Part shown: piece after piece, positions 1,803 through 52,792 of the stretch
Layout: each line of letters starts with the position of its first letter
How positions within the stretch are numbered: position 1 is the first letter of the stretch
Assembly (NCBI RefSeq): GCF_030540835.1
Contig: NZ_JAUOEK010000134.1
Span: 1-64,000, forward strand
Length of the DNA stretch: 64,000 bases
Direction of reading: 5' to 3'
Source: Flavivirga aquimarina
GTDB lineage: Bacteria; Bacteroidota; Bacteroidia; Flavobacteriales; Flavobacteriaceae
Made by a program: the position numbers and the translations under genes
Notes under the pieces: model-generated
What the model was told of the DNA's origin: nothing
What the model saw: the letters and a program-made list of their open reading frames with translations, nothing else
Databases searched by the model: none

Positions 1803-1906
1803 GCGTTAGGGATTGCAGCGGCATCCTTTTTATTTGTCTCTTTGAGCGCAGTCGAAAAGTTGTCAAATAAAAAGATATAGCGAAAAGCCCGACCTTTAGG
1901 TAACGC
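1803..1906. repeat. Nested structured repeat between rpsO and pnp
   Basis: The outer arms GCGTTA (1803-1808) and TAACGC (1901-1906) enclose a second pair, a T-rich 10-mer near 1827-1836 and CAAATAAAAA near 1864-1873. The apical part is a copy of the TGAGCGcAGTCGAA repeat (1843-1856) found elsewhere in this window. I believe similar elements are dispersed in Flavobacteriaceae genomes. It could be a REP-like mobile palindrome or a structured RNA; the sequence alone does not decide. Confidence 0.55.
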
Positions 1907-20932: not shown

Positions 20933-20975
20933 ATTCCTGCCTTCACTTCGACTACGCTCAGTGACCATCAGGAAT
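20933..20975. repeat. Composite palindromic repeat at the murG/murC junction
   Basis: The outer arms ATTCCTG (20933-20939) and CAGGAAT (20969-20975) enclose CTTCGACTACGCTCAG (20946-20961), the repeat core also found at 51413-51489 and 51808-51889. Diverged copies of the same composite lie at 23460-23504 and 24958-25007. Confidence 0.7.
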
Positions 20976-39177: not shown

Positions 39178-39240
39178 CTGAGCGCAGTCGAAGACATTTA
39201 AACCTTTGTTCTTAATGGCATTTCGATGTGCTCAATATGT
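39178..39240. repeat. REP-like hairpin copy before lpxB
   Basis: TGAGCGCAGTCGAA (39179-39192) is a copy of the repeat core seen at 1843, 20948 and 51413-51889. A worn inverted copy (TTTCGATGTGCTCAAT) lies near 39220-39235, so the pair can form a long imperfect hairpin in the gap between the small membrane protein and lpxB. Confidence 0.6.
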
Positions 39241-50082: not shown

Positions 50083-51405
50083 ATGAGTAGATCTATTGCT
50101 GGTTTTTCTAAGCTATCTAAATCTAAAAAAATCGATTGGATTGTCGAAACTTATTTTTCTAATACAGAAGATGCTAAACGTGTTTTAAAACAATATTGGA
50201 ATACCGATGAAAAATTACAACAACTTCATGACGAGTTTATTGAAAACACCATAACTAATTATTATTTACCACTTGGTGTGGCTCCTAATTTTTTAATAAA
50301 CGATAAGCTCTACACAATTCCTATGGCTATAGAAGAAAGCTCGGTGGTAGCAGCAGCTAGTAAATCGGCCAAGTTTTGGTTAGAGCGAGGCGGATTTAAA
50401 ACAAGTGTTATTTCTACAACTAAAATTGGCCAGGTTCACTTTATTTACAAAGGTAATTTTTCGATATTAAAACAGTTTTTTAATAAAACAAAATCTAAAC
50501 TCATACAAGACTCTAAAGCTATTACTGCAAACATGGAAAAACGTGGTGGTGGTATTATTGATATTGAGTTACGTGACAAAACTGATGCCATCAACAATTA
50601 TTATCAGCTCCATGTGTCTTTCGAAACGCTCGATGCCATGGGTGCTAATTTTATAAATTCCTGTTTGGAACAATTTGCCAAAACTTTAAAAAATGAAGCT
50701 TTACTGTTTGATGCTTTTTCTGAAGAAGAAAAACAAATAGATATTGTTATGAGCATTTTATCTAATTATGTTCCTAATTGTTTAGTACGTGCAGAAGTAA
50801 GTTGTAAGGTTGAAGATTTAAGTGAAAACGATACGGTTTCTGGAGATGCTTTTGCTAATAAATTTATACAAGCTGTTAATATTGCTGAAGTAGAACCTTA
50901 TCGTGCTGTGACACACAACAAAGGTGTTATGAATGGTATAGATGCTGTCGTTCTGGCTACCGGTAACGATTTTAGAGCTGTTGAAGCCGGTGTGCATGCA
51001 TACGCAGCAAGACATGGTGCATATAGTAGTTTAACGCATGCTAAAATTGAAAATGGCATCTTTACTTTTTGGATGGAAATTCCATTGGCTTTGGGAACTG
51101 TTGGCGGACTTACCGGTTTACACCCTTTGGTTAAATTATCGTTAGAGTTATTGCATAAACCATCTGCCAAAGAACTTATGCAAATTGTAGCTGTTGCAGG
51201 TTTAGCTCAAAATTTCGCAGCACTACGTTCACTTACAACAACCGGTATTCAACAAGGGCATATGAAAATGCATTTAATGAATATTCTTAATCAGTTTGAA
51301 GCTAATAATGAAGAGAAGCATACCATAACTGAATATTTTAAAACGAATACTGTGACTCATAGTGCGGTGGTTGAAGCTATACACAAATTGAGAGTAAAGA
51401 ATTGA
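50083..51405 (+). CDS. mvaA: Hydroxymethylglutaryl-CoA reductase, class II
   Basis: Reduces HMG-CoA to mevalonate, the committed step of the mevalonate route to isoprenoids. The 440-aa size, without membrane anchor, is that of the class II enzymes. The catalytic landmarks are AIEESSVVAAASKSAKFW near 84, DAMGANFINSCLE near 183, HNKGVMNGIDAVVLATGND near 281, GTVGGLTGLHP near 347 and QGHMKMH near 388, which holds the catalytic His. The gene is followed by the GYDIA-type kinase, with a GIY-YIG nuclease and hairpin repeats inserted between them. Confidence 0.95.
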   Translation: MSRSIAGFSKLSKSKKIDWIVETYFSNTEDAKRVLKQYWNTDEKLQQLHDEFIENTITNYYLPLGVAPNFLINDKLYTIPMAIEESSVVAAASKSAKFWLERGGFKTSVISTTKIGQVHFIYKGNFSILKQFFNKTKSKLIQDSKAITANMEKRGGGIIDIELRDKTDAINNYYQLHVSFETLDAMGANFINSCLEQFAKTLKNEALLFDAFSEEEKQIDIVMSILSNYVPNCLVRAEVSCKVEDLSENDTVSGDAFANKFIQAVNIAEVEPYRAVTHNKGVMNGIDAVVLATGNDFRAVEAGVHAYAARHGAYSSLTHAKIENGIFTFWMEIPLALGTVGGLTGLHPLVKLSLELLHKPSAKELMQIVAVAGLAQNFAALRSLTTTGIQQGHMKMHLMNILNQFEANNEEKHTITEYFKTNTVTHSAVVEAIHKLRVKN

Positions 51406-51412
51406 AGATTAT

Positions 51413-51489
51413 GACTTCGACTACGCTCAATCACCAAATATAGTAAGATGATTATGTCGCCTCATCGGTGACTGAGCGTAGTCGAAGTC
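51413..51489. repeat. Long hairpin repeat before the GIY-YIG gene
   Basis: Arms of 23 bp (51413-51435 and 51467-51489) pair with one mismatch around a 31-nt loop. The arm core is TTCGACTACGCTCA, the same as in the dcw-junction repeats. It begins 8 bp after the mvaA stop and ends 19 bp before the GIY-YIG start. Confidence 0.85.
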
Positions 51490-51508
51490 ACATTAATAAA
51501 CAAATATT

Positions 51509-52792
51509 ATGCCTAATGGTTTTGTATACATATTGGAATGTTCTGATGGTACTTTTTACACGGGTAGTACAATAGATTTGGATAAAAGGTTACATGAACA
51601 TCAAAATGGTAACGGTGCAAATCATACAAAAAAAAGACTTCCGGTAAAGTTGGTATATGTTCAGGAATTTCTAAGAATAGATGATGCTTTTTATAGGGAA
51701 AAACAGATTCAGGGGTGGAGTAGGAAAAAAAAGCTATCTCTAATTGAAGGTCATTTTGATGAGTTAAAAAAATATGCTGAATGCATGAATGATAGTCATT
51801 ATAAAGAGTGGCTTCGACTACGCTCAGCCACCGGAAACGATAATAAAAAAGAACTTAATCAACTGGTGACTGAGCGTAGTCGAAGCCACGGAAAACTTTT
51901 GCTTACAGGGGAATATGTCGTTCTTGACGGTGCTATATCTTTAGCTATTCCTACAAAATATGGGCAGTCTTTAGAGGTTGAAACTATTACTGAACCTAAA
52001 CTCGTTTGGAAGAGTTTGGATGAAAATGAAGTTATTTGGTTTGAATCTACTTTTGAAATTAATAATAAGGTTTCTCACCCTGTTCGCAATGACAATTCTA
52101 TCCAAAATGATCTTAATGTTTCTGATAGGCTTATTCAAATTTTAAATGCTGCAAAACAGCTTAATACTAATTTTTTAAATACTAATAACGGTTTTAAAGT
52201 CACTACTAAATTAGACTTTCCTAGGCATTGGGGATTGGGGACCTCATCTACTTTAATAAATAACATAGCACAATGGGCAGATATTGATGCTTATAGATTG
52301 TTAGAAACAACTTTTGGTGGTAGCGGGTATGATATTGCTTGTGCGCAACATAGCTCACCTATTACTTATCAATTAGAAAATAATACCCCTATAGCTAAGC
52401 CCGTAGTCTTTAACCCTTCTTTTAAAGATCATTTATATTTTGTTTATTTAAATAAAAAGCAAAACAGCAGAGAAGGCATTAAGCATTATAATGCCAACAA
52501 AGGAGATTTAAATGTTATTAGGGATATTAATGATATTACTTCTCAAATAATAACCTCTGATTCTTTGGAAGGTTTTGAAGCCTTAATAATGCAACACGAA
52601 GCCATCATATCTAAATTAACTAAGCAAAAGGCTATTAAAGCCCTTATGTTTAGTGATTTTAACGGTAGTATTAAAAGTCTTGGAGCTTGGGGTGGTGACT
52701 TTATCTTAGTAAGCTCTAAAGAGAATCCAACCCCATATTTCAATAAAAAAGGTTTTAAAACTGTTATCCGTTACGCCGATATGGTTTTATAA
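51509..52792 (+). CDS. GIY-YIG nuclease domain fused to a GYDIA-type GHMP kinase
   Basis: A continuous 427-aa frame in three parts. Residues 1-95 are a single-domain GIY-YIG nuclease (FVYILECSDGTFYTGST; the catalytic Arg in DKRLHEHQ; Glu in FYREKQIQGW). Residues 100-127 are the translation of a hairpin repeat (LRLRSATG and VTERSRSHG). Residues 128-427 are a GHMP kinase (GKLLLTGEYVVLDGA; GLGTSSTLINNIA near 231; GGSGYDIACAQ near 268), probably a mevalonate-pathway kinase next to mvaA. The nuclease appears inserted at the 5' end of the kinase gene. The kinase may instead start at ATG 51785 or GTG 51866. Whether one protein or two are made is unknown. Confidence 0.8.
   Translation: MPNGFVYILECSDGTFYTGSTIDLDKRLHEHQNGNGANHTKKRLPVKLVYVQEFLRIDDAFYREKQIQGWSRKKKLSLIEGHFDELKKYAECMNDSHYKEWLRLRSATGNDNKKELNQLVTERSRSHGKLLLTGEYVVLDGAISLAIPTKYGQSLEVETITEPKLVWKSLDENEVIWFESTFEINNKVSHPVRNDNSIQNDLNVSDRLIQILNAAKQLNTNFLNTNNGFKVTTKLDFPRHWGLGTSSTLINNIAQWADIDAYRLLETTFGGSGYDIACAQHSSPITYQLENNTPIAKPVVFNPSFKDHLYFVYLNKKQNSREGIKHYNANKGDLNVIRDINDITSQIITSDSLEGFEALIMQHEAIISKLTKQKAIKALMFSDFNGSIKSLGAWGGDFILVSSKENPTPYFNKKGFKTVIRYADMVL
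51808..51889. repeat. Long hairpin repeat inside the GIY-YIG/GHMP reading frame
   Basis: Arms of 27 bp (51808-51834 and 51863-51889) pair with two mismatches around a 28-nt loop. The core TTCGACTACGCTCA is identical to that of the hairpin at 51413-51489, so the two hairpins bracket the nuclease coding region. Both arms are translated. Confidence 0.9.

Follow-up and report, generated by a model that had tools for sequence, protein, structure and literature searches.

Single-domain GIY-YIG nuclease genes are paired with REP-like palindromes in Flavivirga aquimarina and other bacteria

Genes for small, single-domain GIY-YIG nucleases are generally paired with palindromic repeats. The case from which we started lies in a window of 64,000 nucleotides from Flavivirga aquimarina, where a GIY-YIG nuclease gene is inserted between an HMG-CoA reductase gene (hmgR) and a kinase gene and is bracketed by two hairpins. 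We give a probability of about 0.6 to the reading that this is a nuclease-REP pair, that is, a single-domain GIY-YIG endonuclease flanked by the palindrome that it recognizes, with workings like those of RAYT transposases and their REPs and with an unrelated enzyme.

The window protein scored 61.8 bits against PF01541 (Pfam cut-off 22.6) and thus contains a GIY-YIG domain. The original prediction described a nuclease coding region bracketed by two hairpins. The domain is indeed encoded between them, but the open reading frame runs on through the right hairpin, which is translated in frame as about amino acids 100-127, and into a kinase that belongs to the GYDIA family of GHMP kinases (NF040656, 430 bits, cut-off 225). 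The kinase part of this reading frame is without the start codon found in relatives. The best explanation is that the kinase gene has the unit at its start and takes its start codon from it, leading to a read-through fusion. We rejected the kinase gene as a component of the mobile unit because relatives have the kinase without the nuclease. The features of the locus are given in Table 1.

Table 1. Positions of the nuclease, its repeats, the adjoining genes and dispersed core copies in the window.
Feature	Position	Strand	Basis
HMG-CoA reductase gene, upstream of the insertion	50083..51405	+	PF00368 1.7e-95; TIGR00532
REP copy 1, outer half of left head-to-head dimer	51412..51435	-	inverted repeat; fold z -9.27
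REP copy 2, gene-proximal left; head outward, tail to nuclease gene	51467..51491	+	inverted repeat; fold
Complete fused ORF, 427 aa: nuclease, translated hairpin and kinase	51509..52792	+	single frame
GIY-YIG nuclease portion of fused ORF, between hairpins	51509..51811	+	PF01541 7.9e-17, aa 4-75
REP copy 3, gene-proximal right; translated in frame	51808..51832	-	inverted repeat; fold z -9.35
REP copy 4, outer half of right dimer; translated in frame	51865..51889	+	inverted repeat; fold
GYDIA-family GHMP kinase portion of fused ORF	51881..52792	+	NF040656 4.3e-129, aa 125-426
Dispersed core copy, one mismatch	1843..1856	-	
Dispersed core copy	20947..20960	+	
Dispersed core copy, one mismatch	39179..39192	-	

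Both hairpins are real and lie where they were predicted, but their arms are 24-25 bp long and each is a palindrome dimer rather than one simple hairpin. The left arms (51412-51435/51467-51490) are 24 nt and the right arms (51808-51832/51865-51889) 25 nt, in both cases with 96% complementarity. Each hairpin is a head-to-head pair of a ~26-nt imperfect palindrome (GGTGACTGAGCGTAGTCGAAGTCACC-like) in which a 5-bp outer stem is separated by a conserved GAG/TCGA internal loop from a small inner part, and the copies next to the gene have their heads outward and their tails toward the gene. When folded as single-stranded DNA, the hairpins had z-scores of -9.27 (left) and -9.35 (right) relative to shuffled sequences, and none of 200 shuffles was as good for either. 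The core shared by the hairpins is dispersed across the window as had been claimed, with five exact copies of TTCGACTACGCTCA and two copies with one mismatch where none are expected. These fold scores and the core count relative to expectation rule out chance hairpins. A second motif, TTCGACTNCGCTCA, has 63 copies in the genome compared with 0 in a reversed control, and some of these form tail-to-tail dimers with TGTC heads outward. Elsewhere, TTCGACTACGCTCA occurs in series spaced ~300-330 bases apart (G011:C7:9701-10353, G011:C8:86784-87403 and G010:C3:220645-221623), and no nuclease is among the matches listed there.

We compared the hmgR-kinase junction across 12 genomes of the genus. The nuclease was present at this site in four (G000, G004, G010 and G011), and in the remaining eight the kinase's own start region comes straight after the end of hmgR, nuclease and repeats both being absent. 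All eight empty loci were free of any GIY-YIG motif within 800 bases and of any repeat of the window architecture in the 200 bases upstream, so that neither hairpin is retained where the gene is absent. Because these eight genomes join hmgR directly to the kinase start, nuclease and repeats together form a unit that has been added. In three of the four filled loci the kinase has lost its own start and reading begins in the nuclease ORF; G010 retains a separate kinase start, and the G011 unit is without the left hairpin. At 18 further loci from the family the nuclease was found in this stretch in none, and a repeat-like match in one (L079). At locus L340 of another genus (genome G311), an HMG-CoA reductase gene is likewise followed by a GIY-YIG nuclease whose frame continues into a GYDIA kinase. 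Its palindrome, GGTGTYTGAGGCTCTCGAARACAC, differs from that of the window, and its right repeat is also translated. The same junction has been hit, or retained, in two genera, whether by independent insertion, horizontal transfer or old inheritance.

The nuclease at the hmgR-kinase locus of the genus is under purifying selection, with dN of 0.04-0.08 and dS of about 1 or more (saturated in one pair). Since synonymous divergence is near saturation, residence at this site is old and there is no sign of recent movement there. The number of TTCGACTACGCTCA copies per genome was weakly higher in genomes with the unit at this junction (13, 21, 33 and 25) than in those without it (5, 7, 7, 24, 26, 12, 0 and 11; one-sided p of 0.037, with the locus's own copies counted).

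Other GIY-YIG genes carry these repeats as well. Matches to the window nuclease at E of 1e-25 or better numbered 21 and were found in 18 of 199 genomes of the family. We scanned 19 of the 21, omitting the second copies L355 and L356, using as the criterion a GAG...TCGA palindrome with at least four of five outer pairs; several of these relatives resemble the own-genome copies L002 and L003 more than the window nuclease. The same repeat architecture was present on at least one side at all 19 scanned loci (the window plus 18 loci in 17 other genomes) and on both sides at 13, compared with both-sided repeats in 0 of 344 control slots. The scan filter demands pairing and therefore the variety of stems, rather than the pairing, is the evidence here: the 19 loci contained 31 distinct arm pairs, imperfect ones included. 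The 19 linked loci and the eight repeat-free empty loci answer the two refuting conditions set in the original prediction, neither of which came true, and give good support to the proposal that the nuclease is moved with the hairpin in a RAYT/REP-like way.

To examine the association more broadly, 80 named Bacteroidota loci were fetched by protein similarity alone. We initially scored 77 of these, three being without full flanks, against mispaired flanks, and only 10 of the 77 exceeded the 95% point of that null. Mispaired flanks are a poor null because the repeat is common to several species, and they were replaced by neighbouring genes of the same loci, a comparison that included 73 GIY-YIG genes (ORF of 80-130 aa, full flanks). 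Inverted flank similarity of at least 34 was reached by 49 of the 73 GIY-YIG genes versus 3 of 527 neighbouring genes (Fisher 8e-50), and matching in either orientation by 64 of 73 versus 12 of 527. UvrC, a housekeeping GIY-YIG protein, had flank matches in either orientation in 0 of 4 cases.

The genome of the window contains ten GIY-YIG matches to the window protein, and palindromes were seen by eye on both sides of all ten, although some are degenerate and the families differ. An inverted score of 32 was reached by five of the nine unbroken genes of this genome and by 17 of 45 class-A genes in a first family-level sample. Class B, a comparison set of GIY-YIG genes of ~82 aa (n = 14), had a median inverted score of 20.5, and four of its genes reached 32. 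One gene of the window's genome, L009, is frame-broken and still has degenerate repeats flanking it. Genes of a ~82-aa group (L107, L119, L120, L141 and L147) often form tandem pairs, and in some cases direct repeats or hairpins resembling terminators separate the copies; this arrangement is unlike that of the units reported here.

Across the phylum, an inverted score of 34 was reached in 9 of 29 cases versus 24 of 870 mispaired ones. Plasmid records of other groups (Alpha-, Beta- and Gammaproteobacteria and Spirosoma) supplied 15 more loci, of which 11 also reached it, a count without a neighbour control; these loci were chosen from 33 hits for breadth of organisms before their flanks were seen, and some of the records are chromosome-sized. 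The flanks from Planktothrix scored 33, and those from R. tumorigenes, Photobacterium and Sinorhizobium C101 scored 15-16, with no flank repeat. In Neisseria gonorrhoeae the heads of the matching pair face the gene and not outward. Among 198 Bacteroidota genomes, L008-like GIY-YIG genes (E of 1e-12 or better) occurred in 40 of 46 genomes with a GTCATTCC-type pattern versus 47 of 152 without it (p of 1e-11, which ignores phylogeny); this cut-off was picked after the table had been seen, and at E of 0.001 the counts are 43 of 46 versus 83 of 152. At one locus (G124:C86:45030-46188), three GIY-YIG genes are arranged in tandem ~420 bases apart with a GTCATTCC-type repeat after each.

The sequence of the nuclease corresponds to that of its repeat. 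For 96 genes, protein identity in non-syntenic pairs was correlated with flank similarity (rho of 0.483, compared with at most 0.147 in 200 permutations), and the share of pairs with matching flanks rose from 0.5% at 30-40% protein identity to 81% above 80%. Of the 80 loci, every second usable one was included; genes that had a stop codon before codon 90 and pairs with related outer flanks were excluded. Host relatedness could be a partial cause of this correlation. When the host was held constant by comparing nine genes of one genome with genes that, by their records, come from other genera, 25 of the 32 outside genes matched in flank their best protein partner (permutation mean of 3.5, with 7 of 20000 permutations as high), in a comparison drawn mostly from one clade (L008).

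The repeat stems covary. Among 45 unfiltered copies from the window's genome, at least four of the five outer-stem pairs formed in 67%, compared with a shuffled maximum of 29%, and the third pair was G-C in 11, C-G in 10, A-T in 9 and T-A in 2. On the protein side, Y17, R27, H31 and E64 were invariant in all 96 aligned genes, and Y7 was present in 93 with gaps in the other three (early-stop genes having been excluded beforehand). We take these Tyr, Tyr, Arg, His and Glu residues to be catalytic from work on I-TevI and UvrC. The eight other own-genome copies are 29-50% identical to the window nuclease, and one pair among three compared was 72% identical.

Units without the gene, or with part of it, were also found. 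At the 80 loci, tail-to-tail repeat pairs less than 300 nt apart held the nuclease gene in 0 of 34 cases, and those 300-600 nt apart held the matched nuclease gene in 39 of 43. Of the 80 loci, just 3 contributed spacers of 91-94 nt and 2 contributed those of 55-58 nt; with so few contributing loci, these lengths reflect local clustering and not a size class of general occurrence. Loci L172 and L165 have gene-less dimers with 91-94 nt spacers, alike within each locus, which surround the nuclease gene or lie no more than a few kb from it. Comparison of gene-less dimer spacers with the nuclease gene of the same locus gave no convincing similarity except for one allele, in G005 between bioD and bioA. 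The left half of this dimer matches the left end of a nuclease unit with scores of 44 and 41, compared with a maximum of 34 from 300 shuffles, and on sequence grounds it looks as though the dimer keeps the left end of that unit. In Sinorhizobium meliloti Ak57, an internally deleted unit that keeps the last 24 codons lies beside an intact one, and at the corresponding site a relative has a single palindrome with a head at either end.

At dut, 4 of 12 genomes of the genus have the nuclease. In Sphingobium, seven records cover the whole unit and four are without it; of the four empty alleles, one has a perfect symmetric palindrome, one an imperfect symmetric palindrome, one another palindrome and one none. 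The symmetric alleles of Sphingobium and Sinorhizobium may be a target or a scar. The 242 canonical copies at the 80 Bacteroidota loci included no symmetric two-headed palindrome, which argues against such alleles being common. In Azospirillum lipoferum (L248, AZO_p3), the unit lies between sufB and sufC of the Fe-S cluster assembly operon, genes that adjoin each other in the three relatives that were read. Those three Azospirillum empties, read out of 10 hits that covered some two thirds of the query in two pieces, contained no palindrome.

At bioD-bioA the nuclease is present in 2 of 12 genomes of the genus, and the 10 GIY-less alleles all contain a repeat dimer that is degenerate in some and, by eye, mostly of another family. 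At L005, where the unit lies between bioD and bioA, the right repeat codes for an N-terminal extension of the listed bioA ORF. These 10 alleles argue against a simple version of the idea that gene and repeats move together. The dimers in these 10 alleles are what would be seen if selfish GIY-YIG genes landed in or beside existing repeat dimers that had been spread by a RAYT or by the host. Gene-less copies are numerous, and identical symmetric flanks would result if the gene entered the spacer of a tail-to-tail dimer. We nonetheless consider this explanation unlikely. There is no repeat at the eight empty hmgR-kinase loci or at the three Azospirillum empties, and because these are repeat-free, the repeats came, or went, with the gene at those sites. 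Moreover, the sequence of the repeat tracks that of the nuclease, and the motifs of the GIY-YIG flanks were absent from all ten Y1_Tnp (RAYT/IS200-type) matches in the window's genome. The flanks of those matches never scored above 30 to any GIY-YIG flank; two of the ten are at contig edges and have short flanks. Because the motifs were drawn from GIY-YIG flanks, their presence at GIY-YIG genes (on one side in 10 of 10, on both sides in 5 of 10) follows from the way they were chosen.

Its long residence under strong purifying selection could instead mean that the nuclease has been domesticated for a housekeeping task, the resolution of cruciforms at its palindromes, in which case the pairing would reflect upkeep and any spread would be incidental. 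Identities of only 29-50% between own-genome copies and the window nuclease mean that this is no recently proliferating transposon, and one of the closest matches among solved sequences is the structure-specific nuclease SLX1 (E of 0.006). We regard this as quite improbable: the presence or absence of whole units among relatives, frame-broken copies such as L009 and the internally deleted unit look like the work of a mobile element. RAYTs are likewise kept under selection, and the domestication and mobile-element views are therefore compatible. It is very unlikely that the palindromes serve the nuclease gene simply as terminators or as elements of mRNA stability, without being linked to the enzyme as its substrate, for although they are hairpins and often lie just beyond the coding region, the repeat is commonly upstream as well in mirror orientation, occurs dispersed without the gene, is translated on the right side in the window and in L340 (and hence marks no 3' end there) and matches the nuclease in sequence between non-syntenic genes.

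Under the nuclease-REP reading, we infer from the anatomy of the units that the nuclease binds, cuts and moves. The nuclease would bind its cognate palindrome as a hairpin or cruciform and would nick or cut it. Repair of the break from another palindrome, or from a palindrome-flanked copy, could then spread palindromes without the gene in trans and, on occasion, the gene too. Such homing-like repair is a tentative choice of route, somewhat short of an even bet, with excision and reinsertion or other routes making up the remainder.

According to sections of Di Nocera et al. 2013 (PMC3733652), most REPs can be split into GTAG and CGTC classes, of which the GTAG class is tied to RAYTs; the CGTC repeats, among which the neisserial dRS3 is placed, are described there as not associated with transposase genes and as apparently lacking a dedicated transposase. 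Section 6 of the same source defines CGTC repeats by a CGTC/TGTC head, a stem of 8-9 bp, a loop of 4-5 nt and a CCA tail. By eye, L008-type flanks (TGTC-ATTCCTGC-loop-GCAGGAAT-CCA) fit the published tag, stem and tail, and rhizobial flanks (CGTCATCC...GGATCCA) and those of several Alphaproteobacteria fit the definition. The repeats of the window differ in being without this tag and in having a GGTGA head and the conserved GAG/TCGA internal loop. Among the records listed from open-licence PubMed Central there was no paper linking GIY-YIG proteins to REPs, and a term search of the main text of the 2025 RepRanger paper (PMC12306157) did not find GIY.

These comparisons suggest a wider proposal, for and against which we see the odds as evenly balanced: single-domain GIY-YIG nucleases may supply the dedicated enzyme that has been missing for CGTC-type REPs and related repeats in several phyla. 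They would then define a second, RAYT-independent class of REPs in which each lineage recognizes one palindrome family and spreads it by homing-like repair, and the symmetric Sphingobium and Sinorhizobium alleles would be the empty target or an excision scar. REP-like palindromes are common repeats of bacterial genomes, and the GIY-YIG nuclease is a candidate for what spreads one common class of them. Because the sequence of the nuclease predicts the flanking palindrome, the question of a CGTC-class enzyme can be tested with one small protein and one oligonucleotide. If the proposal is true, it assigns a function to small GIY-YIG genes, a large family annotated merely as nuclease family proteins or as excinuclease-like, accounts for hairpin-coded tails and fusions to host proteins such as the window kinase, and provides a second, independent example of coevolution between an enzyme and a palindrome.

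Several known GIY-YIG proteins and palindromic elements resemble the unit in part. We know of no repeat association or DNA substrate for UPF0213/single-domain GIY-YIG proteins, which have the same single-domain size and include the best solved relatives (PDB 1ZG2, 4.5e-18, and 1YWL, 2.6e-15, with a profile of nine own-genome copies). GIY-YIG homing endonucleases such as I-TevI and Seg share the nuclease domain and, if the homing-like model holds, would also share spread via repair of a cut empty site; by contrast, the proteins here are ~100 aa long with no separate DNA-binding domain seen, and are flanked by dispersed palindromes. An intron-type homing endonuclease was rejected with TIGR01453 at 22.3 bits, under the cut-off of 56.05. 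SLX1, which has a C-terminal RING/PHD domain, was rejected since its E of 0.006 covers just 42 profile positions and the window protein has no further Pfam domain. We also rejected an anti-phage defence gene, as the window protein gave nothing with PADLOC and L008 gave two weak hits (0.0024 and 0.0044). Rickettsial palindromic elements, for which we draw partly on PMC3733652, are similar in that a palindrome is translated in frame inside a host protein; here, in contrast, the palindrome accompanies a nuclease gene and fuses that gene to a host gene.

In organization the unit is like RAYTs and REPtrons (TnpA-REP): a small nuclease gene is flanked by copies of a short palindrome, the palindrome is also dispersed through the genome without the gene, and the sequences of nuclease and repeat correspond (for RAYTs, this is based partly on section 16 of PMC3733652 and partly on general knowledge). 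RAYT repeats are GTAG-tagged, whereas the heads here are CGTC/TGTC or GGTGA. A RAYT-type enzyme was ruled out, as PF01541 is the sole Pfam domain of the window protein, Y1_Tnp (PF01797) is absent from it and the genome's 10 Y1_Tnp matches are other genes. The analogy to RAYTs drawn in the original prediction thus stands for the kind of linkage between enzyme and repeat, but not for the enzyme itself: the catalytic domain of RAYTs is an HUH tyrosine domain (Y1_Tnp) and that of the present proteins is GIY-YIG, making this a functional parallel and not membership of one family.
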